Source of the DNA: Flagellimonas sp. HMM57 | GTDB taxonomy: Bacteria > Bacteroidota > Bacteroidia > Flavobacteriales > Flavobacteriaceae | Assembly (NCBI RefSeq): GCF_021390175.1 | Contig: NZ_CP090004.1 | Location: forward strand, 992,001 to 1,056,000 | Reading direction: 5' to 3' | DNA: 64,000 nt | Shown here: piece after piece, positions 13,799-42,800 of the stretch | How positions within the stretch are numbered: the stretch's first letter is position 1 | Layout of the letters: every line of letters begins with the position of its first letter | Program-made: the position numbers and the translations under genes | Notes under the pieces: generated by a model | Database searches by the model: none | What the model was told of the DNA's origin: nothing | Seen by the model: the letters and a program-made list of their open reading frames with translations, nothing else

Positions 13799-13841
13799 CA
13801 AATCTAGGAACTTGCCATATGCAAAAACATGACATCTATCA
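13799..13841 (-). promoter_or_regulatory. Crp/Fnr-type box and -7 element of hpf
   Basis: TGACATCTATCA at 13830-13841 is centred 29.5 bp upstream of the first base of TAGATTTG (13806 down to 13799), a perfect match to the Bacteroidota TAnnTTTG element. The start codon follows about 25 bp later. The same spacing recurs at nine other promoters in this window. Confidence 0.7.
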
Positions 13842-13860
13842 GTTTTCAAAAAATGAAAAC

Positions 13861-15177
13861 CTATTTAATTGAAAAAGGTTGACCCGTACTCTGTAAAACG
13901 GAGAACCAAAACTCACTCTCCAAATCTATTTTCTTCCGTTTTTTTGTGACTTCTACTATAGGTGCATAAACAAATCTATTGTTCACGGTACTAACAACAA
14001 ATTTAGTCTTTCCCGCCATGGCTCCATGTACAGCATGGTACGCCAATCTGCTGCAATAGACACTATCACTAGAGTTTGCAGGTGCACTTCTAATAATGTA
14101 ACTGGGATCTATGTATTTTATGGTTACGGGGAAATCCACAAAATGTTCTGCAATCTTATCTTTTAAAAAGATACCGATATCCTCATGCTTTACATTTCCA
14201 GATGCATCCTTGACCGTATTTTCACCTTCAAAGAGATGCTGGCCCGCACCTTCAGCAACTACAATAACAGCATGCTTTTTACGGTCCAAACGTTCTTTAA
14301 GAACCGCTAAAAATCCATTTTCTCCTTCTAAAGTAAAATCCATTTCGGGTATAAGCACAAAGTTTACGACAGGCATGGCCAAGGCCGCAGACGCCGCTAT
14401 AAATCCACTGTCCCGTCCCATAAGTTTGACGATGGAAATTCCGTTAAACGCACCCGCGGCTTCATTATGAGCATCCCGTAAGATTGGACTTGCCACATCA
14501 AAAGCAGTTTCAAAACCAAAAGATTCGTCTATCAAATCAATATCGTTATCTATGGTTTTGGGTATTCCCACCACACTGATGTTCTCATTTCTTTTTTGGA
14601 TTTCTTCACCTATGGCATTTACTCCTTTTAAAGTTCCGTCACCGCCTATGGCAAACAACATATCTACCTTGTTTTCTACAAGGGTATCTACCATTTTTGA
14701 GACATCTTGGCCACCACGAGAAGACCCTAGGAAGGTTCCTCCAAATTGATGGACGTCCCTAACTTTTTCTGGACTGAGTTCAACAAAACCATGGCCCATT
14801 TCGGGAATAAGGCCTTCATAGCCATACGGTATTCCGATTACTCTTTTTATATCGTAAAAGTAATGGAGTGCCATTACCACACCGCGTATGACATTATTGA
14901 TTCCTGGGCACAATCCGCCACAAGTAACGATAGCCGCTGTCGATTTACTTGGTTCAAAAAAAACATTTTGTCGTGGGCCCGCCTTTTCTAAACACTGAGG
15001 CGCTTCACTATTTTTTAGACATTGGTTGTAATTCTCCAAGGAGAGGTCGTATACCAATTTATCATCTTCCTTGATAAAACTAAAAATATTATCTCCCCTA
15101 ACAGTACTTAGCTGAAGGGGAGATTTAAATTTAGGTTCACCTAGACTTTCAATCTTAAATTTATTCTTGTTACTCAC
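13861..15177 (-). CDS. pfkA: ATP-dependent 6-phosphofructokinase (group with mixed ATP/PPi residues)
   Basis: 438 residues, longer than the 320-residue bacterial PfkA and alike in build to the long plant/protist ATP-PFK clade. It phosphorylates fructose 6-phosphate in glycolysis. GGDGT (residues 178-182) has Gly at the position that selects ATP, while PKTIDND (206-212) has Lys where E. coli PfkA has Gly and PPi enzymes have Lys; this mixed pair is known from ATP-using long PFKs. GGLCPGINNVIRG and MGRDSGFIA are the substrate loops. The start is GTG, with no ATG available upstream in frame. It lies 12 bp after pckA, so opposing steps of glycolysis and gluconeogenesis share a transcript. Confidence 0.92.
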   Translation of the reverse strand: MSNKNKFKIESLGEPKFKSPLQLSTVRGDNIFSFIKEDDKLVYDLSLENYNQCLKNSEAPQCLEKAGPRQNVFFEPSKSTAAIVTCGGLCPGINNVIRGVVMALHYFYDIKRVIGIPYGYEGLIPEMGHGFVELSPEKVRDVHQFGGTFLGSSRGGQDVSKMVDTLVENKVDMLFAIGGDGTLKGVNAIGEEIQKRNENISVVGIPKTIDNDIDLIDESFGFETAFDVASPILRDAHNEAAGAFNGISIVKLMGRDSGFIAASAALAMPVVNFVLIPEMDFTLEGENGFLAVLKERLDRKKHAVIVVAEGAGQHLFEGENTVKDASGNVKHEDIGIFLKDKIAEHFVDFPVTIKYIDPSYIIRSAPANSSDSVYCSRLAYHAVHGAMAGKTKFVVSTVNNRFVYAPIVEVTKKRKKIDLESEFWFSVLQSTGQPFSIK

Positions 15178-15189
15178 GTTTTCTTTTAA

Positions 15190-16818
15190 TTAAAAATGGT
15201 CATCCAAACTATGATGTGAATCAATTAGTGGACCACCGTTAAGGATTTCCTCTGAGGCTTGACTTGCAAATTTATCAAAGTTAATGTGGAACGAGTGTGC
15301 CAATTGAATGGCTTTACTAACATATGCTCCTTTTTGCAACCACGTGTTCATAGGATCTAATATTTCTGTTGGTACCCCGGGACAATACTTTGGCATATGC
15401 AACCCAAAAACAGGATGGGCATCAAAATCCACATCATCCAATTTACCTTCCAAGGCCGCAGATATCATTGCTCTGGTATACTTTAACTTTATTCTTGACC
15501 CAACTCCGTAAGGACCTCCGCTCCATCCAGTGTTAACGAGCCAAACATTGACTCCTGCTTCAGTCATCTTCTTGCTTAACATTTCAGCATAAACGGCTGG
15601 ATGCAATGGCATGAAAGGCTCTCCAAAACATGCCGAGAACGATGGTACTGGCTCATTAATACCGGCTTCCGTACCAGCTACCTTAGCAGTATATCCAGAA
15701 ATAAAGTGATATGCGGCTTGACCAGATGTTAATTTAGACATTGGAGGCAAAACACCAAAGGCATCGCACGTTAAGAAAAAGATATTTTTTGGGTTCGATG
15801 CATACGAAGGTTTTTGAATGTTATCAATATGGTCGATTGGATAACTTACCCTCGTATTTTGGGTTATGGAACTATCAAAATAATCCACTTCTCTGGTTCC
15901 TTCTTTAAAAACTACATTTTCTAATAACGCTCCAGGTCTAATCGCCCTATAGATATCTGGTTCTTTTTCTTCAGTTAAATCAATAACCTTTGCATAACAA
16001 CCGCCTTCAAAATTAAAAATGATGTTTTCAGCCGTCCAACCATGTTCATCATCTCCTATCAATTTTCTATCGGGATCTGCGGATAAGGTCGTTTTTCCAG
16101 TACCTGATAAGCCAAAGAAAATTGCGGTATCCTCTTTTTCGCCAACGTTTGCAGAACAGTGCATGGGCAAGACGTTCTTATCAACGGGCAATATTAAGTT
16201 CAATGCAGAAAAAATTCCTTTTTTTATTTCACCAGGATACTCCGACCCACCAACCAAGGCGACTTTACGCGTAAAATCAAGGATAGAGAAATTTCCAGCA
16301 ATAATTCCGAACTCCTCTGGATTAGGCGCTTCGTATCCAGGCGCACAAAGTACCAGCCATTCTTCTTCAAAGTCTTTCAGTTCTTCATCAGAAAGTCTTA
16401 AAAACATGTTTTTGACGAAGTAGTTGGACCATGGAAATTCAGTAACCGTACGAACATTCATAGTATAATCTGGATGAGAGCACACAGCGGCATCCCTTGC
16501 ATAAACCTCTTTATTAGAAAGATATTTAGTTATTTCGTCATAGAGTTTTTTAAAGTTATCTGGTGAAATTGGCTTATTGATTCTACCCCACCATACCCTA
16601 TCTTTGGTATAGTCATCTTTTACCAAAAAACGATCTTTGGGCGAACGCCCTGTAAACTTACCTGTATTTATGGATAGTGTACCATTTTCGGTTTCGGTGC
16701 CCATATCCTTTTCTACGGTAATTTTTTGAAGGGTTTCAGGATCTAAGTTCCAATGTACTCTGGCATTCTTAATTCCATACTTTTCCAATTCTTTTGTCTC
16801 TCTGATAATAGCTTTCAT
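15190..16818 (-). CDS. pckA: phosphoenolpyruvate carboxykinase (ATP)
   Basis: Converts oxaloacetate and ATP to phosphoenolpyruvate, CO2 and ADP, the entry step of gluconeogenesis, and can run in reverse in anaerobic flavobacteria. 542 residues, the expected ATP-type length. FTGRSPKDRF (residues 55-64), the P-loop GLSGTGKTTLS (236-246) with K242, the metal-binding DDEHGW region, and IDHIDNIQ/SGYTAK blocks are all intact. It leads a unit with pfkA (12 bp gap). The 253 bp before it contain a strong hairpin but no clear Crp/Fnr box. Confidence 0.97.
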   Translation of the reverse strand: MKAIIRETKELEKYGIKNARVHWNLDPETLQKITVEKDMGTETENGTLSINTGKFTGRSPKDRFLVKDDYTKDRVWWGRINKPISPDNFKKLYDEITKYLSNKEVYARDAAVCSHPDYTMNVRTVTEFPWSNYFVKNMFLRLSDEELKDFEEEWLVLCAPGYEAPNPEEFGIIAGNFSILDFTRKVALVGGSEYPGEIKKGIFSALNLILPVDKNVLPMHCSANVGEKEDTAIFFGLSGTGKTTLSADPDRKLIGDDEHGWTAENIIFNFEGGCYAKVIDLTEEKEPDIYRAIRPGALLENVVFKEGTREVDYFDSSITQNTRVSYPIDHIDNIQKPSYASNPKNIFFLTCDAFGVLPPMSKLTSGQAAYHFISGYTAKVAGTEAGINEPVPSFSACFGEPFMPLHPAVYAEMLSKKMTEAGVNVWLVNTGWSGGPYGVGSRIKLKYTRAMISAALEGKLDDVDFDAHPVFGLHMPKYCPGVPTEILDPMNTWLQKGAYVSKAIQLAHSFHINFDKFASQASEEILNGGPLIDSHHSLDDHF

Positions 16819-20888: not shown

Positions 20889-21680
20889 TTAATCCAAGGT
20901 TAAAACAGGGATTTCCGAATGCAAAGTCAACAGTTTTGTCAAGCGCCCCTCCGATGGGGTGCTATTTTTTGTATGATTTCTGGGCAGAATTGCCAAAAGG
21001 TCAATATTCTTCTTTGTGATATAATCCAAAATTCCTTCCTCCACATCTTGATTTTTACTAAAAGCATGTTCTTCGTAAAAATGCTCCAAGTAGTATTTGA
21101 GTAGATTTTCATTGCTATCTACAATAGACTCTTCTGCATAAACGGACTCTTTATAAATTGTCAATACATGCACCCTAGAGTCAAAGGTTCTGGAAATATC
21201 CAGAAGTGTACGCAACACTTCTTTATCGTCTATTTTCTCATTGCCCAAAACCAAGGCTATGTCATTGGGTTCTTTAATATCACATCCAAACGGCACTGAT
21301 ATTACGGGGCAGTTGGCCTCCAATGCCAATCTAGATGTATTTGTTATGGCCTCGTCCGTACTTTTGTCCCCCATGGTTCCCATAACTATTAAATTGGCCT
21401 CATGCTCCTCTTGTGTTTCAAGAATCTTTTTTATGATTTCCCCTTTGGCCGTAATAAAAGAAGGAGTATTTTTCACTTTTCGTTGAAACGATTTCAAAAC
21501 GTTGGAGAAATCTATTTTTAAAGTTTCTTCCTCAGACTCCGTTATTGGCATAGAGGCTACGTACAACGCTAATATGTCGACATCCCTATTTGGTCCAGCT
21601 AAGCTCATTGCATACTTCATAGCATTTATCGAGGCTTCTGAAAAATCAAAAGGAATTAAAAATTTAGTGATTAGATTCAT
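20889..21680 (-). CDS. universal stress protein, two-domain
   Basis: 263 residues, two tandem Usp folds. The first starts KFLIPFDFSEASINAMKYA and ends MGTMGDKSTDEAITNTSRLAL with a decayed GX2GX9G(S/T) ATP loop; the second (from about residue 140) is more degenerate and ends EIPVLTLD. It opens a probable unit usp-SLC13-DUF4914. A TGAC-N4-ATCA box over a perfect TAATTTTG element lies upstream, the same arrangement as for the other low-oxygen promoters here. It is the first of three usp genes in the window; binding of ATP cannot be assumed because both loops are weak. Confidence 0.88.
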   Translation of the reverse strand: MNLITKFLIPFDFSEASINAMKYAMSLAGPNRDVDILALYVASMPITESEEETLKIDFSNVLKSFQRKVKNTPSFITAKGEIIKKILETQEEHEANLIVMGTMGDKSTDEAITNTSRLALEANCPVISVPFGCDIKEPNDIALVLGNEKIDDKEVLRTLLDISRTFDSRVHVLTIYKESVYAEESIVDSNENLLKYYLEHFYEEHAFSKNQDVEEGILDYITKKNIDLLAILPRNHTKNSTPSEGRLTKLLTLHSEIPVLTLD

Positions 21681-21714: not shown

Positions 21715-21757
21715 CAAAATTATAGCTGGACACGGACCTAAAACATGACGGAAATCA
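21715..21757 (-). promoter_or_regulatory. Crp/Fnr-type box and -7 element of the first usp gene
   Basis: TGACGGAAATCA at 21746-21757, centred 29.5 bp upstream of TAATTTTG (21722 down to 21715), a perfect TAnnTTTG. The usp start codon is at 21680. One half-site is TGAC rather than TGAT. Confidence 0.62.
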
Positions 21758-23005: not shown

Positions 23006-23049
23006 TGATAAGTATCATATTTATTCGAATCATTAAAAGCAAAACTTTG
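23006..23049 (+). promoter_or_regulatory. Crp/Fnr-type box and -7 element of the DUF2490 gene
   Basis: TGATAAGTATCA at 23006-23017, a perfect palindrome in both half-sites, centred 30.5 bp upstream of AAACTTTG (23042-23049), one mismatch from TAnnTTTG. The start codon is at 23075. Confidence 0.68.
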
Positions 23050-23074: not shown

Positions 23075-23791
23075 ATGGGAGGTGCAAAGCAATTTCCATT
23101 TTTTGTTTTTTTCACAACATTTTTTATTCTAACCCACACAACTTCTTACGGACAAGGCAATAGTGAAGACAGGTCTGGCTCTTGGCTTGTTCTTTATGGC
23201 ACTAACAAAATCCATGAGAAATGGAGCATTCCGCTCGTAGGTATCCTTAGACATCACGACATGTTCGAAAAATATGAATTCGTATTTGTAAGAACAGGAC
23301 TGTCCTATAAAATTAACAACCACTCTGCCTTTACAACTGGAGTCGCCTATTTGAGTTCAAGGAGCTATACCGGATCTGAAGAATTTAGCAATGCGACACA
23401 GTTTTGGGTTTATGAGGAATATAGTTTAAAATCAAAATCAAAAAGAAACAAAATTTCACATAGGTGGCGATTGGAAACCCGATGGAAAAAAAACGCCGAT
23501 GACCTTCATATCAATAATAGATTAAGGTATCGACTTCAGTTTGTTAAATCCTTGTACAAAAATGTCTACTTCAGAACTTTTAATGAGTTCTTTATAAATA
23601 TAGAACCCAAACTGTTCAATCAAAATAGATTTTATATCGGCCTGGGGCAAACAATATCACCATCTCTTAAGGTAGGTATTGGATACTTAAAAAATCATTT
23701 TGATAAATCCGATCATGATGTGGTTAGGATGTCATTAACCTTTAAAACCGACTTTACCAAAAAAGATATGGCACATAATACTACAGAATAA
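23075..23791 (+). CDS. DUF2490 family outer-membrane beta-barrel protein
   Basis: 238 residues. Residues 1-26 form a signal peptide ending TSYGQG. The mature part has alternating beta-strand composition with many aromatic residues (RSGSWLVLYGTNKIHEKWSI; YKINNHSAFTTGVAYL; HRWRLETRW; RLRYRLQF; FNQNRFYIGLGQTI), the look of the DUF2490 family of small outer-membrane barrels. It ends in a short polar tail after FKTDF. A clear Crp/Fnr box lies upstream, so it is probably made at low oxygen, next to a tonB gene with the same kind of promoter. What it carries or does is not known. Confidence 0.82.
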   Translation: MGGAKQFPFFVFFTTFFILTHTTSYGQGNSEDRSGSWLVLYGTNKIHEKWSIPLVGILRHHDMFEKYEFVFVRTGLSYKINNHSAFTTGVAYLSSRSYTGSEEFSNATQFWVYEEYSLKSKSKRNKISHRWRLETRWKKNADDLHINNRLRYRLQFVKSLYKNVYFRTFNEFFINIEPKLFNQNRFYIGLGQTISPSLKVGIGYLKNHFDKSDHDVVRMSLTFKTDFTKKDMAHNTTE

Positions 23792-23830: not shown

Positions 23831-23873
23831 TGATTATTATCATATTTTATTTTTTAACCCCTGCATAACTTTA
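23831..23873 (+). promoter_or_regulatory. Crp/Fnr-type box and -7 element of tonB
   Basis: TGATTATTATCA at 23831-23842, centred 29.5 bp upstream of TAACTTTA (23866-23873), one mismatch from TAnnTTTG. The start codon is at 23896, about 20 bases after the expected transcription start. Confidence 0.7.
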
Positions 23874-23895: not shown

Positions 23896-24618
23896 ATGAA
23901 ACCAAAAAAGAACCCCAACGCAGATATAGGACGCAATAGCAGTCTTTATTTTATGATAGGTCTTACTTCCGTGCTCTTTGTAACGTGGCAATCATTAGAA
24001 GTGAAGACATATGAGAAGGAATCCGATTTTGCAAATGTAATCGAAGTAATGGACGATCTTAATGAGGATGTCCCGATTACGGAAACCGTGTTGACCGCAC
24101 CACCGCCACCACCGCCGGCAGCTCCAGATGTCATAGAGATTATTGAAGATGTAGAGGACATTGAGGAAACTATTATTGAAAGTACAGAAAGTAGCCAAGA
24201 AGTTTTTGTGGAAGATGCCGTAAGCATAGAAGATGTTGAAGTTGGCGAAATGGAGGAAGAAGAGATAGTGCCCTTTGCCATTATCGAAAATGTTCCCGTT
24301 TTCCCGGGATGTGAGAATTTGAATTCGGAAGAAGAGCGTAAAGCTTGTTTTAACAGAATGGTGCAGGAACATGTGAAAAAGCACTTTAAATACCCTCCCA
24401 CCGCTCTTGAAATGGGAATTACAGGTAAAGTATACGTGCAGTTCGTAATCGACTCCAAGGGAAGAGTAACGGAAATCAAAAAAAGAGGGCCAGATAGATT
24501 ATTGGAAGATGAAGCCGCACGAATCATTGCAGCACTTCCTACGGTAAAACCTGGTGTACAAAGAGGGAAAGCTGTCAAAGTCAACTACGGAATTCCAATA
24601 AACTTTGTAATGCAGTAA
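23896..24618 (+). CDS. tonB: TonB family energy-transducing protein
   Basis: 240 residues. A single membrane anchor (about 15-33, SLYFMIGLTSVLFVTW) follows a short cytoplasmic tail; a proline run (APPPPPPAAP, near 68-77) and a long acidic periplasmic spacer lead to the TonB C-terminal domain (about 150-240) with YPPTALEMGITGKVYVQFVIDSKG and a final VNYGIPINFVMQ strand. It should couple the proton-motive force to TonB-dependent receptors. No exbB/exbD is nearby. The Crp/Fnr box in front marks it as a low-oxygen paralogue. A strong terminator follows. Confidence 0.9.
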   Translation: MKPKKNPNADIGRNSSLYFMIGLTSVLFVTWQSLEVKTYEKESDFANVIEVMDDLNEDVPITETVLTAPPPPPPAAPDVIEIIEDVEDIEETIIESTESSQEVFVEDAVSIEDVEVGEMEEEEIVPFAIIENVPVFPGCENLNSEEERKACFNRMVQEHVKKHFKYPPTALEMGITGKVYVQFVIDSKGRVTEIKKRGPDRLLEDEAARIIAALPTVKPGVQRGKAVKVNYGIPINFVMQ

Positions 24619-24679: not shown

Positions 24680-25876
24680 TTAAAACCAGTCAGTATTCAA
24701 GTATTCTTTATTTCTGGAAGCGGTTTCTCTGCTTTTGACCACCAAATGTGTTTTATCAAACTGTCTTGCCCTATAGCCCAAAAGGTGAAAAATAGATTTG
24801 GCCAGAAACCTTGCCACTCTTTGATCGACCAAAAGTGCATCTTTCTTTAACGATTCCCATCGAATTCCTGGAAACCTCACCAAAAGATGGTCCGCTTTTA
24901 TTTTGCGAAGACCTTTCGATATCCATAAAAGTATTGTTGGAATCGACCGTACGTAATAAAATCCTTCATTACCTTGGTTTTGGTATAGGGGCATAAAAAT
25001 CTGCTTTCTCCCTTTGGCCTTTAGAATGGCATTATTCTCCAAGGCTACATTTTCACCATCCGAAATCTCCTGAAAATTCACGAATCCAGGAAGCATCTTA
25101 AAATCGATTCCATGTTTTATATCGTACTGATAATAAATCTCGTAAAACTTATTCGACACCGCACTGGAGTTTAAAACTCCATTTCTGAGTGCGGCCATTT
25201 CGTTGGTGGATAAATTGACAGAATTCGTCAGTGCCAACGTAAAATGGACAAAATCAATACAATTTTTTATGGCATTGATATCATCATGTTGACCACTTTC
25301 ATAACCCATTGACACATAGCCCAGTTCATTGATAAAACTTAGTAAAGCTCCTACCAAATATTCCTCTATTCCCAAAACAATGGGCAGTGGGTAGTTCATT
25401 GCAAATTTCCTATTCAGTAAGCTATCGTTTAAAACTATAAATGGTGAGGTTTCACTAGATGTGGTATGTAAATCTATAAAGTAAAATGGAGGGGTGCTTT
25501 TCTCTAAAATCCCATTGAACAAGGCGTACAATTCCAGTAATTCTTTTTCTTCATCCGTCTCCTGTTCTTCTTTGCCCTTAATCTCATCAATCCTATCAGG
25601 CGACCAAATCCTATTTAAATCTTCAGTCTGAAATCGTACATTCTTTTCAAGTGCCCTTAAATTTCCCGCAATGGCATAAATTTCTCCATAAATTGACTTT
25701 TGCCTGAGTTTTAATTCACGAATAACGTGTTTAAGGGCAAATATTCCAGCTGGCTCATTGCCATGTATTCCCGCAAAAAAAATCACAGTAGGTCCGCTCC
25801 CATCACCTTTAAGATGGTCTATGATTCGTTCAACCTCTGCCGTCTCGTTAAGGGCATGACTATATACTTTTGGCAT
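24680..25876 (-). CDS. succinylglutamate desuccinylase / aspartoacylase family zinc hydrolase
   Basis: 398 residues of the M14-related AstE/AspA family, zinc enzymes that split N-acyl amino acids. The zinc site is visible: AGIHGNEP with H38 and E41, and FIDLHTTS with H137; DLNRIW (about 86-91) matches the substrate-carboxylate block DLNR of aspartoacylase, and GYESGQHDD carries a candidate catalytic glutamate. No signal peptide, so cytoplasmic. The first 17 bases overlap the end of the GCS2-CBS gene, implying coupled translation. A ligase that makes, and a hydrolase that cuts, an amide bond in one operon suggests a linked cycle on an N-acyl or gamma-glutamyl compound; this is inference. Confidence 0.85.
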   Translation of the reverse strand: MPKVYSHALNETAEVERIIDHLKGDGSGPTVIFFAGIHGNEPAGIFALKHVIRELKLRQKSIYGEIYAIAGNLRALEKNVRFQTEDLNRIWSPDRIDEIKGKEEQETDEEKELLELYALFNGILEKSTPPFYFIDLHTTSSETSPFIVLNDSLLNRKFAMNYPLPIVLGIEEYLVGALLSFINELGYVSMGYESGQHDDINAIKNCIDFVHFTLALTNSVNLSTNEMAALRNGVLNSSAVSNKFYEIYYQYDIKHGIDFKMLPGFVNFQEISDGENVALENNAILKAKGRKQIFMPLYQNQGNEGFYYVRSIPTILLWISKGLRKIKADHLLVRFPGIRWESLKKDALLVDQRVARFLAKSIFHLLGYRARQFDKTHLVVKSRETASRNKEYLNTDWF

Positions 25877-27725
25877 GTTCCAAGTCCACTTTACTGATTA
25901 TACCCACTAAATTTGAACCTATACAAACTGGCAAACAGCCAATTTCGTAATCGTTCATTAATTGTTTTGCTGTTGCTATGGTTGTTCTCGGCTGGACTGT
26001 TACTACTTTTTTTATCATGATGTCAGAAATTTTAGTCTCCTTTTCTTTCTGAACGTTTCTCAGTTCTTCGATATGGCTCCAGGTCAATAGCCCCGTAAGC
26101 TCCCCATTGTTATTTTCAACAGGAATGTGGTGAATATTGTTCCATTGCATTATAGATAGAGCTAAATCAATATAATCATCCTCATAGAGTTTCATGAGCT
26201 TGGTAGACATGATCTGTCCAACCCATTTATAAGATGATTTACCATTATTAACTTCTTCTAGGTTAGGCCACGTATGTACTGGCATATCTTTTAGTTGATT
26301 TACAGAGATAGTTTTTGTCAATGCGACCAAAACACTATCCAATTTCATATGCTTTCGTAAGTTTCTAAAATTCTCCACTTGCCACTCTGCCCCTGTACCT
26401 TTTTTTGTTCTGGCTTTTATAATTCCAAGCAATCTATCAATATCTTTCTCATCAACACCATGCTTTTTTAAACCTTCATAAGCTATTGGCAGCAATTCAT
26501 TTATTATTAATTTTTTAAGTGTTATAGGCTTCCCCAGCCAGAAAAAAACGGTCTGCCTGCCCGTTCTCGCAGCTTTTATGAAATTAAGTTTGGCTTCTTT
26601 GAAATCCATAATACCGGGCATATCATCAAACTTTTTTGGTCTTCCGACCATTAGTCCTACCCAAAAAGCAAAATTTGCAATTTCATCAATTGCTGTAGGT
26701 CCAGATGGAATATACCTATTCTCAATGCGCAGGTGGGGCTTTCCATTACCAACCCCGTAACACGGTCGGTTCCAGCGATAAACCGTTCCATTGTATAGAT
26801 TGAGTGCATCCAATTTAGGGATGCCTCCATTTTTTAATACCTCCAAAGACTCTTTCTCTATAGCCTTGGTCAAAACAATGCGGTGCGTTGAAATATCCTC
26901 TTTAAAGATTTCCACTACAGAATCTTTCTGCCAATGATTTCCAAAACCAACTCTGGCAACCTGCTCTTTTAGCGCATAAGTCCATTTCCTAGTATCCAAA
27001 CTTTGTTGAAATAAAGCAATACGGGTCTCTTTCCAAAGTTCCCTGCCCAATAAAAGAGGAGAATTACAACAAACTCCCAAAACTGGACCTGCTATAGCCT
27101 GCGACCAATTATAGCTTTTGATAAAATCTTTGGGAGGAATCTGTAAATGAAGTTGAAAACTGGTATTGCACGCTTCAAAAAGAACAGAATCATGGCGTAG
27201 CGTCAATTCATCTACGCCTCTAATTTTTAATGCAAAATGATCTCCCCGGAACGATTTTAAAACTTCATTAAGTTTATAGTAACGTGGAATGGGTGTCATA
27301 AAATCGATACCCAACTCGTTTTTACTAATGGTAGGCAGAATACCGGTCAACAGGATATGTATTCCCAGCTCTTTCGCTTTTGTGCGAGCCTTATTGAGCA
27401 ATTCGCCGAGTTGTTTTTCCACTCTAGAAAAGCAGTTTCCGCTCAATTGAAATGGATCTAGATTTATTTCGAGATTATAACTCGCCAATTCTGTAGTAAA
27501 ATGCGGGTCATCGATATGCTCTAGAAGATCTAAGGATTTTCCAGATGGCCTAAATTCGTTATCTACCAGACACATTTCTTGTTCGGCACCTATTCTTACG
27601 ATACCGTCCTCAATTAAATTTTGCTCTAAAAGAAGCTCAAGAGCCTTAATATCATTAAGCAAGTGCTTCACAAAAGCTTTGCGCTCTTGATCATCGAACT
27701 TACTTTTAGGAATATGTTCTCCCAT
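25860..27725 (-). CDS. GCS2-type carboxylate-amine ligase fused to a CBS domain pair
   Basis: 621 residues. Residues about 20-450 are a glutamate-cysteine ligase family 2 (YbdK-like) domain: RIGAEQEMCLVD opens the ATP and glutamate site, followed by ELASYNLEINL and HLRIENRYIPSGPT. Residues 502-621 hold two CBS motifs (VGQIMSTKLMKL and KISDIMIKKVVTV), which in other enzymes bind AMP, ATP or SAM and adjust activity. GCS2 proteins usually end near 370-400 residues, so the fusion is the unusual point. It overlaps the zinc-hydrolase gene downstream. An upstream TGAC-N4-GTCA palindrome suggests Crp/Fnr control. The true amino-acid partners are not predictable. Confidence 0.88.
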   Translation of the reverse strand: MGEHIPKSKFDDQERKAFVKHLLNDIKALELLLEQNLIEDGIVRIGAEQEMCLVDNEFRPSGKSLDLLEHIDDPHFTTELASYNLEINLDPFQLSGNCFSRVEKQLGELLNKARTKAKELGIHILLTGILPTISKNELGIDFMTPIPRYYKLNEVLKSFRGDHFALKIRGVDELTLRHDSVLFEACNTSFQLHLQIPPKDFIKSYNWSQAIAGPVLGVCCNSPLLLGRELWKETRIALFQQSLDTRKWTYALKEQVARVGFGNHWQKDSVVEIFKEDISTHRIVLTKAIEKESLEVLKNGGIPKLDALNLYNGTVYRWNRPCYGVGNGKPHLRIENRYIPSGPTAIDEIANFAFWVGLMVGRPKKFDDMPGIMDFKEAKLNFIKAARTGRQTVFFWLGKPITLKKLIINELLPIAYEGLKKHGVDEKDIDRLLGIIKARTKKGTGAEWQVENFRNLRKHMKLDSVLVALTKTISVNQLKDMPVHTWPNLEEVNNGKSSYKWVGQIMSTKLMKLYEDDYIDLALSIMQWNNIHHIPVENNNGELTGLLTWSHIEELRNVQKEKETKISDIMIKKVVTVQPRTTIATAKQLMNDYEIGCLPVCIGSNLVGIISKVDLEHAKSI

Positions 27726-27756: not shown

Positions 27757-27799
27757 CTAAACTACAAAGCATCTGTCAATAAAAATATGACGGTTGTCA
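27757..27799 (-). promoter_or_regulatory. Crp/Fnr-like box and -7 element of the GCS2-CBS operon
   Basis: TGACGGTTGTCA at 27788-27799 is a perfect palindrome with TGAC in both arms. Its centre is 29.5 bp upstream of TAGTTTAG (27764 down to 27757), one mismatch from TAnnTTTG. The spacing agrees with the other boxes although both half-sites depart from TGAT. Confidence 0.5.
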
Positions 27800-36323: not shown

Positions 36324-38534
36324 TTATTCTTTTTCTTTATTTTCTGATAACAATCCGTCGTTGTCCTTAATTTTAATGTCTGTACCCAATCGCTGTAAAT
36401 AAGCTATCAAGGATACTATTTCCCTATCGCGCATCTGTATAAAATCCTCACCGTTTTCTTGGGCATATTTTTTATCTGCTTCATAGGTTTTTACAAACTC
36501 TGGGTCAGAATACAGATTTTTCTCAATTTGTAATGCTTGTTCCGCCATAGATTGCTCCGCGTTGGCTATATCTTCTGGCGTATAGGGAACCCCTAGCTTG
36601 ACCATCACCTCCATTTTACTCTGGACCGCACTTCTATCATGTTCGCTGGTGACCAACCATTGATAGGCGGGCATTATGGAACCTGATGAGGTACTTTGCG
36701 GATCGTACATGTGATTTAAGTGCCAGTTATCAGAGTATTTTCCTCCCACTCGTAATAAATCGGGACCTGTTCTTTTACTTCCCCAGAGGAAAGGATGGTC
36801 GTAAACGAACTCTCCCGCCTTTGCATATTCACCATAGCGTTCCACCTCGCTCCTGAACGGTCTTATCATTTGCGAGTGACAACCTACACAACCTTCTCGG
36901 ATATAGAGGTCACGCCCTTCCAGTTCTAAAGGCGTATATGGCTTAACACTTGTAATTGTCGGAATGTTGGATTTAACCAATATGGTCGGTACAATTTGAA
37001 TTATCCCACCTATTAAAATTGCAACTGTAGCCAAAATTGTAAGCTGCACAGGTCTACGCTCTAACCAGTTATGGAAGGTTTCACCAGCAACACGTCTTTT
37101 GGAAACTCTTGTCAAAGCTGGCGCTTCTGCCAATTCATCTTCTACAGAGCTACCTTTTCTGATCGTTACAACAATATTATATACTAAAATAAGCATCCCC
37201 GCGATGTACATTGTACCTCCAATGGCACGCATCCAGTACATGGGGATAATCTGAGTAACGGTCTCTAGAAAGTTTCCGTATACCAAGGTTCCATCTGGGT
37301 TAAAATCCTTCCACATTAATGCCTGGGTAAATCCGGCCACATACATTGGTAGCGCGTACAGTATAATTCCCAAAGTACCTATCCAAAAATGTAGATTGGC
37401 CAAACCTTTTGAGTAAAGTGTCGTCTTGAACATCTTTGGAACCAACCAGTAAATCATACCAAACGTAAGAAAACCGTTCCAAGCCAATGCTCCCACGTGC
37501 ACGTGTGCAATAATCCAGTCACTAAAGTGAGCAATTGCATTCACATTTTTTAGGGATAGCATCGGTCCTTCAAAAGTGGCCATACCATAACCTGTAATTG
37601 CCACTACCATAAACTTTAGTGTGGCATCACTTCTTACTTTATCCCACACACCGCGCAAGGTCAACAATCCATTGATCATACCACCCCATGATGGTGCAAT
37701 GAGCATTACCGAGAATACAACGCCAAGGTTTTGAGCCCAATCTGGTAAAGCAGAGTACAATAAATGGTGGGGGCCTGCCCAGATATAGATGAATATCAAT
37801 GACCAGAAATGGACTATGGAAAGACGGTATGAATATATAGGTCTATTCGCTGCTTTTGGAACAAAATAATACATCAGCCCCAAAAATGGTGTGGTCAAGA
37901 AGAAAGCCACGGCATTATGACCGTACCACCACTGCACCAATGCATCTTGGACACCTGCATATACCGAATAACTTTTCAATGCCGTAACGGGCAACTCCAA
38001 ACTGTTGAAAATATGCAGTACGGCAACCGTAACGAATGTAGCCAAATAGAACCATATTGCCACGTAGAGATGGCGCTGTCTTCTTTTTAAAATCGTACCG
38101 ATCAAGTTCCAACCAAAAACGACCCAAACCACGGCAATGGCCAAATCTATAGGCCATTCCAATTCTGCATATTCTTTTGATGTGGTATACCCCAAAGGCA
38201 ATGTAATGGCCGCTGCCACAATAATCAATTGCCAGCCCCAGAAATTAAAATTACTTAGAAAGTCATTGAACATTCTGGCTTTTAGGAGTCGCTGCGTGGA
38301 ATAATACACCCCTGCAAAAATGGCGTTCCCCACAAAGGCAAAAATCACCGCATTAGTGTGCAAAGGACGTAACCGCCCAAAACTGAGCCATGATATACCG
38401 TCCGTAACATTGGGAAACAAAAACATAAAAGCCAGTAGTAGCCCTACCAGCATTCCAACAACACCCCATAGCATGGTGGCATATAAAAACTTTTGTACGA
38501 TCTTATTGTCGTAGCTAAATTGTTGTATTTCCAT
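36324..38534 (-). CDS. ccoNO: cbb3-type cytochrome c oxidase, fused subunits I and II
   Basis: 736 residues joining CcoN (about 1-465) and CcoO (about 485-736), a fusion typical of Bacteroidota. In CcoN the haem and CuB ligands appear as RPLHTNAV, VQWWYGHNAVAFF (H206), WAGPHHLLYSALPDW (H256, H257) and IIAHVHVGALAWNG (H344, H346). In CcoO the haem c motif is CVGCH at 549-553 with EREGC-like lead-in and the YGEYAKAGEFVYDHPFLWGSKRTGPDL block, and a MPAYQWL methionine. It reduces oxygen to water at the inner membrane with high affinity and pumps protons. It starts 2 bp after ccoS. Confidence 0.97.
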   Translation of the reverse strand: MEIQQFSYDNKIVQKFLYATMLWGVVGMLVGLLLAFMFLFPNVTDGISWLSFGRLRPLHTNAVIFAFVGNAIFAGVYYSTQRLLKARMFNDFLSNFNFWGWQLIIVAAAITLPLGYTTSKEYAELEWPIDLAIAVVWVVFGWNLIGTILKRRQRHLYVAIWFYLATFVTVAVLHIFNSLELPVTALKSYSVYAGVQDALVQWWYGHNAVAFFLTTPFLGLMYYFVPKAANRPIYSYRLSIVHFWSLIFIYIWAGPHHLLYSALPDWAQNLGVVFSVMLIAPSWGGMINGLLTLRGVWDKVRSDATLKFMVVAITGYGMATFEGPMLSLKNVNAIAHFSDWIIAHVHVGALAWNGFLTFGMIYWLVPKMFKTTLYSKGLANLHFWIGTLGIILYALPMYVAGFTQALMWKDFNPDGTLVYGNFLETVTQIIPMYWMRAIGGTMYIAGMLILVYNIVVTIRKGSSVEDELAEAPALTRVSKRRVAGETFHNWLERRPVQLTILATVAILIGGIIQIVPTILVKSNIPTITSVKPYTPLELEGRDLYIREGCVGCHSQMIRPFRSEVERYGEYAKAGEFVYDHPFLWGSKRTGPDLLRVGGKYSDNWHLNHMYDPQSTSSGSIMPAYQWLVTSEHDRSAVQSKMEVMVKLGVPYTPEDIANAEQSMAEQALQIEKNLYSDPEFVKTYEADKKYAQENGEDFIQMRDREIVSLIAYLQRLGTDIKIKDNDGLLSENKEKE

Positions 38535-38536
38535 AT

Positions 38537-38743
38537 TTATTGGTTTGTACTTTTAGTTAGTTTAATTTCTTTTTCGTTAGTGCTGTCTTTTGAATTAGGT
38601 AGGAGTTCATCCTCAAAGAGCATACGTACGGATGGAGTATATGCATCATCATACTGACCACTCTTTACCGAAAGGACAAAGGCGGCAAAAAAAACTATAG
38701 CTACAGAAATGCTTATAGCCAATAACACATATATAACACTCAT
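38537..38743 (-). CDS. ccoS: CcoS family cbb3 oxidase assembly protein
   Basis: 68 residues: one N-terminal membrane helix (MSVIYVLLAISISVAIVFF) followed by VKSGQYDDAYTPSVRMLFED, the GQYDD(x)5-RMLF signature of CcoS. CcoS is needed to insert haem and copper into cbb3 oxidase. It has its own Crp/Fnr box, centred 55 bp upstream of its start and overlapping the 3' end of ccoI, so the structural genes can be expressed without reading through ccoI. Confidence 0.92.
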   Translation of the reverse strand: MSVIYVLLAISISVAIVFFAAFVLSVKSGQYDDAYTPSVRMLFEDELLPNSKDSTNEKEIKLTKSTNQ

Positions 38744-38761: not shown

Positions 38762-38804
38762 TAAATCTACTTTTACCTTTAATTTCAAAAAATGATATAT
38801 ATCA
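38762..38804 (-). promoter_or_regulatory. Crp/Fnr-type box and -7 element of the ccoS-ccoNOQP operon
   Basis: TGATATATATCA at 38793-38804, a perfect palindrome centred 29.5 bp upstream of TAGATTTA (38769 down to 38762), one mismatch from TAnnTTTG. The box overlaps the stop codon of ccoI. Confidence 0.75.
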
Positions 38805-41201
38805 GCTTTCATTAATTTTTATTTTTCTTCCTAATATATTGGTGAAAAGTGTTGTAAAAACAACGATACTTATTGAACTTAAAGGCATTAGAATAGCAGC
38901 CACTACTGGCTGCAACTGCCCCGTAACCGCAAAATACAATCCAACAATGTTATAGCACAAGGAGAGAAGAAAACTCAATTTTATAACTTGAATCGACTTT
39001 CTGGACATTTTGATAAATAGGGATAACTTGCTTAGGACGGAAGCATCTAAAATAGCATCACAAGCAGGTGAAAAAACATTGATGTTTTCTGAAACAGAGA
39101 TTCCAACATTACTTTGCGCCAAAGCTCCCGCATCATTTAGACCATCGCCGACCATCAACACATTTCTATCTTTTTGTAATCCTTTTATATATTCAAGTTT
39201 GTTCTCAGGTTTTTGATTAAACAATAAATCAGTGTTTTCTGGAAGTATTTTTTTGAGCTGCTCTTTTTCTCCGTCATTATCCCCGGAAAGAATTCCAAGT
39301 TGCATGTGTTCTCCCAAGGAATTAAAAAGTTTCCCCACTCCTTGTCTGTATTTATTTTTGAACACGAAACATCCCTTGTAATTCTCATCCGAGCTAATAT
39401 AAACAGTCGTACTTGTATTAGCAGCAGTGGAATTGCTCCCAACATAGCTTGCAGAGCCTACTTTAATGGAATGTTCCTTTGACCTGCCCTCTACCCCTTT
39501 ACCGGTATGTTCTTGAAACTCATCCAAGGTCATAATAGCATTGGATTTTAAAATTTCGTAAAGTGACCGGCTTAAAGGATGGTTTGAAGCGCGCAATGTG
39601 GTTTTTAGCAATGCTGTTTCAGCTTCTGTCAATGCTACTCCTTCATATAAAATAGTGTCTTTTTCCGTAGTCGTAATTGTTCCTGTCTTATCAAAAATTG
39701 CAGTATTCACTTTAGCTAACCGCTCTATTACGTTCGTATTCTTAAGGTAGAATTTATGCTTTCCAAATATGCGTAGCATGTTCCCCAAGGTGAAAGGTGC
39801 CGCCAACGCAATGGCACATGGACAGGCAATGATCAGCACCGCCGTAAAAACATTGAGTGCCATGCTTGGCATATAGAACAACCAGTATGCAGTAGCTATA
39901 AAAGCAATAGTCAAGATACCAATGGTAAAACGTTTCCCAATACTGTCTGTTAGTGTTTGGAACGCTGTTACCTTATCTTTAGCAAAAACTGAATTTCCCC
40001 ATAGCTGGGTAAGGTAACTTTGGGACACGGATTTTAACACTTCCACCTCCAGAACGCCCGAAAGCTGTTTTCCACCTGCAAAAAGCCTCTCTCCAGATTG
40101 CCTAAAGACCGCTTGGGACTCCCCTGTAACAAAACTATAGTCTATTTCTGCCATTCCTTTAATAAGAATACAGTCTACTGGAATGATTTCGTTGCTCCTA
40201 ATTAGGAGACGGTCTCCTATTTTGATGTTATAGATTTGGATATTCTCCTCATCTCCATTAGTCTTTAACTTGGTCACCGCGATTGGAAAATAGGATTTGT
40301 AATCACGCTCAAAAGAAAGGAAAGCATATGTTTTTTGTTGAAAGAACTTTCCGAGCAATAAGAAAAATACCAACCCGGTAAGGCTATCAAAAAAGCCAGA
40401 CCCCAAATCAAAAACAATATCTACGGTACTCCTCAAGAACAATGTTAGAATACCCAAAGCAATGGGAACGTCAATATTCAATAGTTTAGACCGTAATCCC
40501 TTGTAGGCCGATATGAAATAACCGCTACCCGCATAAAACACCACCGGCAACGAAAAGGCAAACATTAACCAACGAAATACGAATTTGTATTGATCTAGCC
40601 AGAATTCCTCTACTTCAAAATATTCTGGAAATGAAAACAACATCACGTTCCCAAAGGCAAAACCTGCGACACCCAACTTATAAGTAAGAGAACGGTCCAC
40701 CTTTTTTTCTTTCTTATTGTATTCGTCCAGAGAAATGTATGGCTCATACCCTATACTGCCCAACATAAGCACTAAACGCTTCAATGAAAAGTCGTTAGTG
40801 GTGTAGGTTACCCGAATCGTTTTTTTTGGAAAGTTTACTTGAGAGTTTGTAATGGATGAATTTAGACGGTTTAGGTTTTCCAATACCCAAATACATGAAC
40901 TACAATGAATGGATGGAATACTTAAGTTGACAACTTGTATTCCTTCATCATTAAATGCAACCAACTTTTCAACAATATCCTGATTGTCCAAAAAATCATA
41001 TTTCCGTTGAATTTTCTTATTAGGCGCAGTACCAGCCCTTTCCTCTATATCATAGAAGTTGGAAAGTCCATTGGTGGTAAAAATCTCATAGACCGTTTTA
41101 CAGCCATTACAACAAAACTCCTTTTCATCAAAAAGTACCTTTGTCCTATTGCAATCATCACCACAATGATAACATTTGGAATCAATCATACACATTCGCA
41201 T
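38802..41201 (-). CDS. ccoI: cbb3 oxidase-associated copper-exporting P-type ATPase
   Basis: 799 residues, P1B ATPase that moves copper for cbb3 oxidase assembly (CcoI/FixI). The N-terminus has a cysteine-rich element CYHCGDDCNRT then FCCNGCKTVY, followed by an HMA domain with IHCSSCIWVLENL. The transport motif is CPC in IIACPCAIALAAP, the phosphorylation site IFDKTGTITT, and the hinge MVGDGLNDAGALA. The longest frame starts at 41201 (MRMCMIDSK); the ATG at 41189 would begin MIDSKCYHCG, looks more like the family and gives a leader of about 20 bases, so it is the likelier start. It shares a divergent regulatory region with a Crp/Fnr gene. Confidence 0.95.
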   Translation of the reverse strand: MRMCMIDSKCYHCGDDCNRTKVLFDEKEFCCNGCKTVYEIFTTNGLSNFYDIEERAGTAPNKKIQRKYDFLDNQDIVEKLVAFNDEGIQVVNLSIPSIHCSSCIWVLENLNRLNSSITNSQVNFPKKTIRVTYTTNDFSLKRLVLMLGSIGYEPYISLDEYNKKEKKVDRSLTYKLGVAGFAFGNVMLFSFPEYFEVEEFWLDQYKFVFRWLMFAFSLPVVFYAGSGYFISAYKGLRSKLLNIDVPIALGILTLFLRSTVDIVFDLGSGFFDSLTGLVFFLLLGKFFQQKTYAFLSFERDYKSYFPIAVTKLKTNGDEENIQIYNIKIGDRLLIRSNEIIPVDCILIKGMAEIDYSFVTGESQAVFRQSGERLFAGGKQLSGVLEVEVLKSVSQSYLTQLWGNSVFAKDKVTAFQTLTDSIGKRFTIGILTIAFIATAYWLFYMPSMALNVFTAVLIIACPCAIALAAPFTLGNMLRIFGKHKFYLKNTNVIERLAKVNTAIFDKTGTITTTEKDTILYEGVALTEAETALLKTTLRASNHPLSRSLYEILKSNAIMTLDEFQEHTGKGVEGRSKEHSIKVGSASYVGSNSTAANTSTTVYISSDENYKGCFVFKNKYRQGVGKLFNSLGEHMQLGILSGDNDGEKEQLKKILPENTDLLFNQKPENKLEYIKGLQKDRNVLMVGDGLNDAGALAQSNVGISVSENINVFSPACDAILDASVLSKLSLFIKMSRKSIQVIKLSFLLSLCYNIVGLYFAVTGQLQPVVAAILMPLSSISIVVFTTLFTNILGRKIKINES

Positions 41202-41213
41202 TTATACCTCATA

Positions 41214-41287
41214 CAAAGGTGTACCATAGCGAATGGAAAAAACATGATAAATATCAGTTTTTAAGGAAGTTACCACCATTACCTTTG
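41214..41287. promoter_or_regulatory. shared Crp/Fnr-type box for divergent ccoI and crp/fnr promoters
   Basis: One palindrome TGATAAATATCA (41245-41256) is centred 29.5 bp from the -7 element on both sides: CACCTTTG on the minus strand (41221 down to 41214) for ccoI and TACCTTTG on the plus strand (41280-41287) for the regulator. The plus-strand element ends only 4 bp before the regulator's ATG (41292), so its transcript is probably leaderless or nearly so. Confidence 0.75.
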
Positions 41288-41291
41288 CGGT

Positions 41292-41972
41292 ATGAAAAGG
41301 TGTACGACCATAAAGGCACAACAATTAAGAAATTTTGAATCACTTTCTAAAATGGCTTTGAATAGGGTTTTAGAAACTTCAGAATCGATGTTCGTACCCA
41401 AGGGCACTATTGTCTTTAAGGAAAACCAACTTTTGAACAAGCTGTACTGTATTAAGGAAGGGGCCTGCAAATTTAGCACGTTCGATAACTTGGGAAGGGA
41501 GCACATCTTACGTTTTTTGGGAAAAGGTGACATTATGGGGAAACGTTCCATAATATCGAACAAAGGAGCCAATGTGACGGCTACAGCATTAACGGAAACC
41601 GCACTATGTTGTTTTGATAAAAGTGAGATACAGTACAATCTAAAAACTAATACTGATTTTTGTAACGACCTGTTACACGCGTTTATAGAAGATGCCAATG
41701 CTATTGATAAAACAAGAACCATTTATTGCGCAAACAAAGGCATTAAACAACGATTAGCACAACTATTGCTATATCTGGCAGAGAAATTTGGACAAGACCC
41801 TGACGGAAAATTAATGATACGACTGAAACGTGAAGATATGGCTTCTGTTCTAGGGACTTCTCAAGAATATATCATCAATTTATTGACCCATTTTAAGAAC
41901 AAAGGATTTCTAGATGTAAACAGGAGCGAAATCGTTTTAAATTCTAAAGAAGAGCTTAGAGAATTGATTTAA
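41292..41972 (+). CDS. Crp/Fnr family transcription regulator (first paralogue)
   Basis: 226 residues: cyclic-nucleotide-type beta-roll (about 15-130), dimer helix, and a winged helix with recognition segment GTSQEYIINLLTHF. Compared with E. coli FNR (GLTVETISRLLGRF) the contact Glu is kept but Arg is Asn. Cysteines occur at C4, C53, C59, C106 and C107, without the N-terminal FNR cluster spacing. The gene faces ccoI across a shared Crp/Fnr box and is likely autoregulated. The upstream TAnnTTTG element lies so close that translation may start on a leaderless mRNA. Which signal it senses is unknown. Confidence 0.88.
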   Translation: MKRCTTIKAQQLRNFESLSKMALNRVLETSESMFVPKGTIVFKENQLLNKLYCIKEGACKFSTFDNLGREHILRFLGKGDIMGKRSIISNKGANVTATALTETALCCFDKSEIQYNLKTNTDFCNDLLHAFIEDANAIDKTRTIYCANKGIKQRLAQLLLYLAEKFGQDPDGKLMIRLKREDMASVLGTSQEYIINLLTHFKNKGFLDVNRSEIVLNSKEELRELI

Positions 41973-42046
41973 TATGAACCTAAAAAATTACAGTTTTTTT
42001 TAATTGAATAAACCGTAATTTTACGTGTCAGGTAAACCAAACAGTT

Positions 42047-42736
42047 ATGCAAAGCAGATGTGAGAATTGTATCGTACGTCAGTTCAACTCGTTACGAGCT
42101 ATGAGCAAAGAAGAGTTAAAAGCCGTTTCAGATTCCAAAACAACCAAATCAATTAAAAAAGGGGAACCTTTATTTGAGGAAGGTGATAAACTGAATGGAG
42201 TGTATTGCGTACGCAACGGTGTTTCCAAACTTTCCAAGTTAAGCTCAAACGGCAAAGATCAAATTGTTAAGCTAGCTTCCACAGGAGAAGTAATCGGACA
42301 GCGTTCGGTCGTTGCACAGGAAACCGCTAATCTTTCTGCCATTGCAGTTAATGATATGGAAGTTTGTTTTATTCCAAAAGAGACCATAAACCACACACTT
42401 CAAAAAAATCCAAACTTTACACTCGAGGTATTGCGACATATGGCCCACGACCTAAAGGAAGCGGACGATGTAATCGTGAATATGTCTCAAAAGACCGTGA
42501 AACAGCGTATTGCCGAAGCTTTCTTATACTTAAAGAATAATTTTGGCGAGGACGAAGATGGCTTTTTGGCACTATCGTTATCCAGAGAAGATATATCTAA
42601 CGTTGTAGGTACCGCTACAGAATCTGCAATTCGAATAATTTCAGAATTCAAGAAAAAAGGACTTATTCATACCTCTGGCAAGAAGGTGGGCATAAAGAAT
42701 GAACGCAAGTTGGTAGAACTTGTAGAAGGGTTCTAA
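42047..42736 (+). CDS. Crp/Fnr family transcription regulator, FNR-like (second paralogue)
   Basis: 229 residues. The N-terminus MQSRCENCIVRQFNSL puts C5 and C8 in a CX2C pair like the start of the FNR cluster motif; further cysteines are C54 and C107, so four in all, the number FNR uses, though spacing differs. The recognition helix GTATESAIRIISEF keeps both Glu and Arg of the CRP/FNR core contacts with TGA, which suits the TGAY boxes in this window. An oxygen-sensing role is therefore likely but unproven. It stands 74 bp after the first paralogue. A TAATTTTA element (42016-42023) lies inside a small palindrome CGTAATTTTACG upstream. Confidence 0.9.
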   Translation: MQSRCENCIVRQFNSLRAMSKEELKAVSDSKTTKSIKKGEPLFEEGDKLNGVYCVRNGVSKLSKLSSNGKDQIVKLASTGEVIGQRSVVAQETANLSAIAVNDMEVCFIPKETINHTLQKNPNFTLEVLRHMAHDLKEADDVIVNMSQKTVKQRIAEAFLYLKNNFGEDEDGFLALSLSREDISNVVGTATESAIRIISEFKKKGLIHTSGKKVGIKNERKLVELVEGF

Positions 42737-42757
42737 ATAGGCGCTTCTTTTAAAAGC

Positions 42758-42800
42758 TGATAATTGTCATAGTCTCCCCTTTTACTTAACGCTAATTTTA
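42758..42800 (+). promoter_or_regulatory. Crp/Fnr-type box and -7 element of the third usp gene
   Basis: TGATAATTGTCA at 42758-42769, centred 29.5 bp upstream of TAATTTTA (42793-42800), one mismatch from TAnnTTTG. The start ATG at 42823 is about 18 bases from the expected transcription start. Confidence 0.68.

Follow-up and report, generated by a model that had tools for sequence, protein, structure and literature searches.

Genes and palindromes at the locus

The window analysed here, a stretch of 64,000 nucleotides (992001-1056000) from contig NZ_CP090004.1 of Flagellimonas sp. HMM57 (Flavobacteriaceae), contains between its positions 13,799 and 42,800 a series of TGAY-N4-RTCA palindromes, each located at a short distance from an element resembling TAnnTTTG, the -7 element of Bacteroidota promoters. 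The genes behind these elements (Table 1) include hpf, tonB, hemN, ccoI, ccoS and several genes for universal stress proteins (usp), together with two neighbouring genes for Crp/Fnr proteins, here called FnrA and FnrB. A first-pass annotation of the window had proposed that nine such palindromes, centred 29.5 or 30.5 bp from the first base of the -7 element and serving ten start codons, define a low-oxygen regulon in cis, with a class II activator replacing the -33 contact.

All nine palindromes were present at the coordinates given in that annotation. When the spacing is expressed as the gap, i.e. the number of bases separating palindrome and -7 element (gap 23 corresponds to the distance of 29.5), a search of the 18 sides of the nine palindromes for -7 elements that deviate from TAnnTTTG by one base or none places nine at gap 23 and a tenth at gap 24, the latter at 23006 in front of the DUF2490 gene, while no other gap in the scanned range of 5–59 holds more than three. 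Ten promoters arise from nine palindromes because that at 41245 serves both ccoI and fnrA. The proposed spacing and the ten start codons were thus recovered. An exact TAnnTTTG is seen in four of the ten -7 elements (those of 13830, 21746, 27822 and the forward side of 41245) and one mismatch in the other six.

The window holds 13 palindromes in total compared to a mean of 4.8 in 100 shuffled versions, none of which reached 13. The remaining four (5575, 5638, 15212 and 61868) have no -7 element with one mismatch or fewer at gaps 22–24. The genes named in the first-pass annotation were also correct, except that the "GCS2" part of the CBS-domain protein is a Pfam match below threshold (E 0.0065; bit score 16.3, with the cut-off at 21). 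At the gathering threshold Rfam returned one tRNA and nothing else, and a sigma-70 scan, whose coverage does not extend to Bacteroidota promoters, gave nothing useful.

Table 1. Palindrome-associated promoters of the window and the genes behind them.
Feature	Position	Strand	Palindrome	-7 element (position)	Gap	Remarks
hpf promoter	13830..13841	-	TGATAGATGTCA	TAGATTTG (13799-13806)	23	
hpf (Ribosomal_S30AE)	13471..13773	-				
usp promoter	21746..21757	-	TGATTTCCGTCA	TAATTTTG (21715-21722)	23	gene 20889-21680
Universal stress protein	20889..21680	-				heads a minus-strand run with DASS transporter, DUF4914, pckA and pfk (putative co-transcription)
DUF2490 promoter	23006..23017	+	TGATAAGTATCA	AAACTTTG (23042-23049)	24	
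DUF2490 protein	23075..23791	+				
tonB promoter	23831..23842	+	TGATTATTATCA	TAACTTTA (23866-23873)	23	
tonB (TonB_C protein)	23896..24618	+				
CBS-domain gene promoter	27788..27799	-	TGACAACCGTCA	TAGTTTAG (27757-27764)	23	
CBS-domain protein	25860..27725	-				GCS2-like part under Pfam cut-off
hemN-usp promoter	27822..27833	+	TGATAATTATCA	TAATTTTG (27857-27864)	23	
hemN, oxygen-independent coproporphyrinogen III oxidase	27885..29243	+				TIGR00538 above cut-off
Universal stress protein after hemN	29261..30082	+				
ccoS-ccoN promoter	38793..38804	-	TGATATATATCA	TAGATTTA (38762-38769)	23	overlaps ccoI end
ccoS (FixS)	38537..38743	-				
ccoNO fusion (COX1 + FixO)	36324..38534	-				
ccoI, copper P-type ATPase	38802..41201	-				
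Two-way palindrome	41245..41256		TGATAAATATCA	TACCTTTG (41280-41287, +); CACCTTTG (41214-41221, -)	23 on both sides	between ccoI and fnrA
FnrA, Crp/Fnr protein	41292..41972	+				Cys at the 5, 54 and 107 positions; Ile at 8; Asn replaces recognition-helix Arg
FnrB, Crp/Fnr protein	42047..42736	+				C5-x2-C8, C54, C107; likely activator
usp promoter	42758..42769	+	TGATAATTGTCA	TAATTTTA (42793-42800)	23	directly 3' of fnrB
Universal stress protein	42820..43725	+				

The spacing in the genome, the family and the phylum

The genome-wide scan for the pair that the first-pass annotation had suggested gave a positive outcome. In the single 4.16 Mb contig, with the reversed pattern serving as control, 285 palindromes were found compared to 143 control matches. 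The combination palindrome-N{8,38}-TAnnTTTG matched 31 times (control, 9), with gap 23 in 11 of the 31, and the looser palindrome-N{14,32}-TAnnTTT matched 80 times (control, 26), with gap 23 in 22 of the 80 and gap 7 as runner-up. Across 60 genomes of the family, one per genus, the exact gap-23 pair occurred 471 times and was present in 57 genomes, compared to 10 occurrences of the reversed pattern. In a sample of 296 genomes of the phylum, 124 had a match, including all 30 drawn from the family; outside the family the matches ranged from 0 to 11 per genome, with a single outlier at 28 (G328).

Moreover, gap 23 was the most frequent gap in nine other genomes, five of them lacking an FnrB-type protein. 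Its share was 10/19 in G054, 8/14 in G053, 10/19 in G042, 10/15 in G007, 16/27 in G056, 19/33 in G047, 26/51 in G025, 16/21 in G038 and 28/45 in G328; pooling five of the first seven of these genomes placed gap 23 at 54 of 94.

Two further observations deserve mention. G328, from another family of the phylum, has with its 28 gap-23 sites the maximum of the phylum sample, and encodes an FnrB-like protein (L334) with a second Crp gene adjoining. In HMM57 itself, an additional gap-23 site (G000:C1:2505996-2506221; L017, L356) lies beside a 202-aa frame whose HTH_Crp_2 match is weak; the gene after the site encodes 147 aa without a Pfam family.

Placement of the sites and promoter architecture

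The sites were characterized on a sample of 131, made up of 120 of the 460 sites found in other genomes (from 15 genomes) and 11 from HMM57. An open reading frame (ORF) of at least 60 aa starts within 250 bp of 120 of them, with a median of 25 bp from the -7 element to the start codon. The reading of the palindromes as promoter elements would be weakened if the pair were as common in coding regions as in promoters, and this was not the case: with 1.5 kb of flanking sequence at either end, 38 of 40 sites sampled from relatives and all 11 of HMM57 lay wholly outside ORFs longer than 150 aa, the two exceptions being one site inside and one partly inside such an ORF. In the shorter stretches, which reach 160 bp upstream, at least 3 of the 131 sites fell inside ORFs of that length.

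In Flavobacterium psychrophilum, TAnnTTTG occupies positions -12 to -5 according to a passage of PMC9723704. Combined with gap 23, this puts the centre of the palindrome at -41.5 with respect to the predicted transcription start, which would be the position of a class II Crp/Fnr activator. In the base profile of the 131 sites, the palindrome is flanked by a weak outer A/T pair (0.51 A and 0.21 T at one end, 0.68 T at the other), followed by a T-rich segment from -33 to -30, and then nothing clear until -12. No -33 element was found behind the palindrome: TTG occurs within -36 to -28 in just 12 of the 131 sites and the frequency of G at -34 to -29 is 4–14%, counts that come from the palindrome sites only, without ordinary promoters alongside. 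The upstream core element thus appears to be absent or weak, as a class II Crp/Fnr promoter requires. The proposal of a class II activator that replaces the -33 contact therefore finds support in the comparative evidence, namely the gap-23 peaks together with the absence of a visible -33 element.

Two-way palindromes were also considered as a general rule and rejected, as a -7 element at gap 23 on the far side was detected in 7 of the 131 sites compared to a mean of 2.7 at other gaps.

Conservation of the sites in relatives

Conservation was followed in 80 named loci, of which 78 have the ccoI-fnr region intact in the data. The palindrome between ccoI and fnr is present in all 78. On the ccoI side, the -7 element stands at gap 23 in 78 of 78, invariably with one mismatch, and on the fnr side in 73 of 78 with one mismatch or fewer (exact in 72), so that both are kept in 73 of the 78; every other gap is represented in five relatives at most. 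These -7 elements are nearly invariant, compared to spacer averages of 53% (forward) and 68% (reverse). The invariance of the TGA and TCA letters is partly built in, as the pattern was used to select the sites, whereas neither the occurrence of the palindrome at 78 of 78 loci nor the positions of the -7 elements are subject to that bias. The comparison points to 41245 as a conserved two-way promoter. Older work in E. coli reportedly showed that one dimer of CRP is able to act on two divergent promoters.

Among named relatives, gap 23 is kept in 78 of 78 at the usp site after fnrB and in 73 of 74 at that of ccoS, and, among loci of the genus, at the hemN site in 29 of 29, at the CBS-gene site in 23 of 29 and at the tonB site in 18 of 19. 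The single mismatch in the -7 element is itself retained, in 71 of 74 relatives for ccoS (38762-38769) and in 78 of 78 for both usp (42793-42800) and ccoI (41214-41221). These three elements look as if they had been selected for weakness.

An AT-rich genome may be expected to yield palindrome/-7 pairs by mere composition, from which a reader could have selected the good ones, and relaxed -7 matches are indeed common, with a background of 0.93% per position when one mismatch is allowed. However, the gap histograms are not flat (HMM57, G038, G328, G054, G053, G042, G007, G056, G047 and G025), with a peak at one gap in these ten genomes, the family-wide ratio is 471 to 10, the sites lie outside ORFs, and the -7 element at gap 23 is retained in 73 to 78 of 78 relatives. 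We therefore rejected chance as an explanation, its probability being negligible.

Genes downstream of the sites

Of 120 proteins encoded downstream of the sites, 75 fell into 21 clusters. The largest were hemN and ccoN (9 each), cytochrome c (7) and Thioredoxin_9 (6), followed by usp, phosphotransacetylase (PTA) and pyruvate formate-lyase (PFL) with 4 each, hpf and metallo-lactamase/rhodanese with 3, OmpW with 2, and a pyruvate:ferredoxin oxidoreductase (POR) cluster of 2 from one genome; several of the remaining clusters have no family. Pfam was run on 20 of the downstream proteins, seven of them from HMM57. Most of the named functions resemble those that FNR, Anr and FixK control under anaerobic conditions. 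According to PMC9723704, the cbb3 oxidase and enzymes of heme and its synthesis are up in F. psychrophilum under oxygen limitation. The low-oxygen regulon proposed by the first-pass annotation is therefore supported by gene content, with the refinement that it extends over the genome and the family and is no mere local cluster in cis.

These targets also bear on the possibility that the sites are read by a carbon-responsive regulator of the MalR type instead of an oxygen regulator. MalR and Cur of Bacteroides belong to the same superfamily and come from the same phylum, and a section of PMC8510549 puts homologues from Flavobacteriales and Saprospiraceae near MalR and predicts carbon sensing (for a Flavobacteriales metagenome-assembled genome); the query there, as far as that section goes, was a weight matrix from Bacteroides MalR. 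MalR and Cur exert carbon control, and the target list, with cbb3 oxidase, hemN, PFL, POR and PTA, argues against it here. Moreover, the number of sites tracks FnrB or another regulator type described below, and FnrB has four conserved cysteines. All this makes a MalR-type reader very unlikely.

The regulators that may read the sites

HMM57 has six HTH_Crp_2 matches, four of them above the family cut-off; the two best, and the only ones at E 1e-10, are FnrB and FnrA. FnrB is 98% identical to a protein of Flagellimonas sp. 389, its named relatives are from Flagellimonas and Muricauda (Flavobacteriaceae), and its domains are cNMP_binding and HTH_Crp_2, as in FNR of the E. coli type.

The 60 family genomes were sorted by eye into regulator classes. 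An FnrB-type protein is present in 39, with a mean of 9.2 sites, and in 11 others the only matches are Crp proteins of about 350 aa, with a mean of 8.5 sites. The 19 proteins of this length that were fetched, covering those 11 genomes, all combine a receiver domain with cNMP_binding and HTH_Crp_2 (receiver-Crp hereafter). Six genomes without any regulator match have 0, 0, 0, 1, 1 and 1 sites (mean 0.5), and four with other weak matches only have 1, 1, 3 and 9. The pair is rare where a suitable Crp/Fnr protein is lacking.

The recognition helix of the FnrB type contains E192, I195 and R196 in 108 of 109 rows, the odd row being a gap, and the equivalents of the three residues are all present in 19 of 19 receiver-Crp proteins; a single Asn among 20 rows of receiver length is explained by L112 being a FnrA-type gene. 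In FnrA, residue 196 is Asn and not the Arg of the recognition helix. Of the two neighbouring regulators, FnrB is thus the likely binder and activator. FnrA could be considered for this role instead, since fnrA comes first after the two-way palindrome and its product retains three of the four cysteines. However, no FnrA was found in 8 of 11 named loci listed, though the sites persist there, and the Asn stands where both FnrB and the receiver-Crp proteins have Arg, which makes activation of the window promoters by FnrA improbable.

FnrA itself looks like a lineage-restricted paralogue inserted between the shared promoter and fnrB, as it was found in about a dozen of the 80 named loci; elsewhere fnrB lies directly behind the palindrome.

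In 14 of the 19 loci with receiver-Crp, the gene is succeeded at about 8–61 bp by a palindrome and then by usp, like fnrB in the window; the other five lack this arrangement. A gene for a PAS histidine kinase lies directly upstream of receiver-Crp in the three loci examined (L182, L173 and L189) of the 19 fetched.

Loci L171-L189 thus present a recurrent cassette of PAS histidine kinase (in the three loci examined), receiver-Crp, palindrome and one or more usp genes, which occurs in family genomes with and without FnrB.

Conserved cysteines of FnrB

Cysteines C5, C8, C54 and C107 are present in 109 of 109 FnrB-type sequences, and likewise in all 39 FnrB-type proteins of the family genomes. In an alignment to solved FNR chains, C5, C8 and C107 fall on FNR cysteines, C54 falls on an Ala, and the third N-terminal Cys of FNR is missing. 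A sister group shows the FNR-like arrangement C-x2-C-x4-C with Phe at position 54. Other families contributed 20 loci, of which 10 encode a protein with all four cysteines, 3 a receiver-Crp protein and 7, among them L335, L337 and L339, others without the set.

The relation between C54 and the third N-terminal Cys was followed in 417 distinct sequences, which derive from 120 listed of 6007 and of 1333 matches plus our own loci, and represent mostly two clades rather than independent events. Of these, 367 have CxxC and C107, with C54 but no third Cys in 242, the third Cys but no C54 in 124, both in one and neither in none; of the other 50, one has CxxC without C107 and 49 lack CxxC. Such mutual exclusion is what a moved cluster ligand predicts, though it is mostly a contrast between two clades.

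FnrB probably senses oxygen through an iron-sulfur (Fe-S) cluster held by C5, C8, C54 and C107, to judge from this pattern. It may also be that FnrB binds the sites without such a cluster and responds through a redox disulfide between C54 and C107, or through another ligand such as heme or NO. C54 and C107 align to strands of the beta-roll that are probably neighbours, which would suit a disulfide. The N-terminal CxxC is nevertheless just as invariant (109 of 109), and the Phe at 54 in the sister group with CxxCx4C agrees with a role of C54 as replacement for the fourth ligand; a cluster-free FnrB is thus possible but rather unlikely.

A model for low-oxygen control in Flavobacteriaceae

On these grounds, we think it likely that the central part of a low-oxygen regulon of Flavobacteriaceae is located in the window, and that a dimer of FnrB activates transcription from palindromes at -41.5. 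In the proposed mechanism, the FnrB dimer would bind ATGAY-N4-RTCAT centred at this position, take the place of the -33 element, and recruit RNA polymerase with the housekeeping sigma factor to the lone TAnnTTTG-like -7 element, thus acting as an activator rather than a repressor. The one-mismatch -7 elements, found in six of ten window promoters and conserved at ccoI, ccoS and usp, would keep basal transcription low, and C54 would replace the third N-terminal Cys of FNR as a ligand. The palindrome at 41245 would drive ccoI to one side and the regulator genes to the other, and therefore the circuit would include a feedback loop. The receiver-Crp response regulator adjoining the PAS kinase would read the same operator in other genera. 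That FnrB represents a Bacteroidota-specific FNR lineage in which C54 of the cNMP beta-roll has become the fourth Fe-S ligand in place of a residue of the N-terminal loop, and that receiver-Crp has taken over the operator in several genera, is a broader proposal to which we give even chances.

Several observations weigh against this model. The spacing is not absolutely fixed, as 17 of 19 loci of the genus show gap 24 at the DUF2490 site and two show gap 23. No ORF of at least 60 aa starts within 250 bp of 11 of the 131 sites, and in 18 of the 120 from other genomes a stop-free frame on either strand spans the palindrome and about 160 bp upstream, which makes the count of three sites inside ORFs a lower bound. 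Of the 120 proteins encoded downstream, 45 are singletons outside any cluster. Sites are also present in 7 of the 10 family genomes without an FnrB-type or receiver-Crp match: nine in G048 (82% complete), three in G051, and one each in G010, G046, G023, G052 and G055. FnrA could compete for the sites. Regarding the cysteines, the nearness of C54 to the others rests on a jelly-roll topology that we assume, with C54 and C107 on neighbouring strands, and three proteins of a sister family (L335, L337 and L339) combine an FnrB-type helix with none of the four cysteines; therefore, cysteines and an operator-type helix can part.

The helix of L335, L337 and L339, which come from another family of the order, reads TATESAIR.

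Comparison with known systems

FnrB shares with FNR of E. coli the type of activator (Crp/Fnr), cysteines in the N-terminal region and at the position of C122, and a near-FNR core (TGAT-N4-ATCA). FNR also acts from a class II position at -41.5 and has anaerobic targets such as PFL. FnrB differs in lacking the C-x2-C-x5-C plus C122 pattern, the third N-terminal Cys being absent and C54 present; in its score of 111.6 bits, compared to a curated cut-off of 228 (NCBIfam NF008365); in the site, which deviates from TTGAT-N4-ATCAA by an outer base A rather than T; and in the use of a Bacteroidota -7 element without a -33 box. The recognition helix has Ile where FNR has Ser.

The Anr regulon of Pseudomonas includes usp and cbb3 targets and, unlike the promoters described here, relies on sigma-70 -35/-10 promoters and a regulator with canonical FNR cysteines. 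It shares hemN as a target, a gene listed among the conserved Anr targets in a portion of PMC6588701; ompW appears among the anaerobic targets of FNR in part of PMC4886647.

With the FixLJ-FixK and hFixL-FxkR-FixK systems of rhizobia, the regulon shares a Crp-type activator linked to the cbb3 oxidase, which in rhizobia (fixNOQP) is under an oxygen-sensing two-component system, according to an extract of PMC7888657. The relatives studied here differ in fusing receiver and Crp in one protein (19 of 19) with the PAS kinase adjoining (3 of 3), and the genome of the window in having only FnrB and FnrA at E 1e-10. A FixLJ-like PAS kinase next to a receiver-type regulator is thus present in relatives, and its PAS domain may bind heme.

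Among the literature matches listed, none defined an FNR-type operator or an oxygen regulon for Flavobacteriia, and none described this operator, the use of C54 or the exchange of FnrB for receiver-Crp. To the extent that sequence allows a judgement, the system can soundly be regarded as low-oxygen control of the FNR/FixK kind adapted to Bacteroidota promoters, with the moved cysteine and the regulator swap as its oddities. A fixed promoter code shared by the family provides a ready regulon prediction for a large, mostly aquatic bacterial group and offers a clean test of activator action at the odd Bacteroidota promoter, and the natural cysteine swap gives a way to ask what an FNR cluster needs. 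If the broader proposal is true, one promoter code would be read by either an Fe-S sensor or a phosphorelay.

Other features of the window

The usp-headed run on the minus strand that contains pckA and pfk includes a gene for a DUF4914 protein (1015 bits; 17072-18958). Further along, ccoG (33633-35041, minus strand) is divided into two ORFs (34223-35041 and 33633-34262) that do not share a reading frame, which reflects either a real frameshift or an assembly error; in locus L061, the coordinates of both parts are consistent with one frame.

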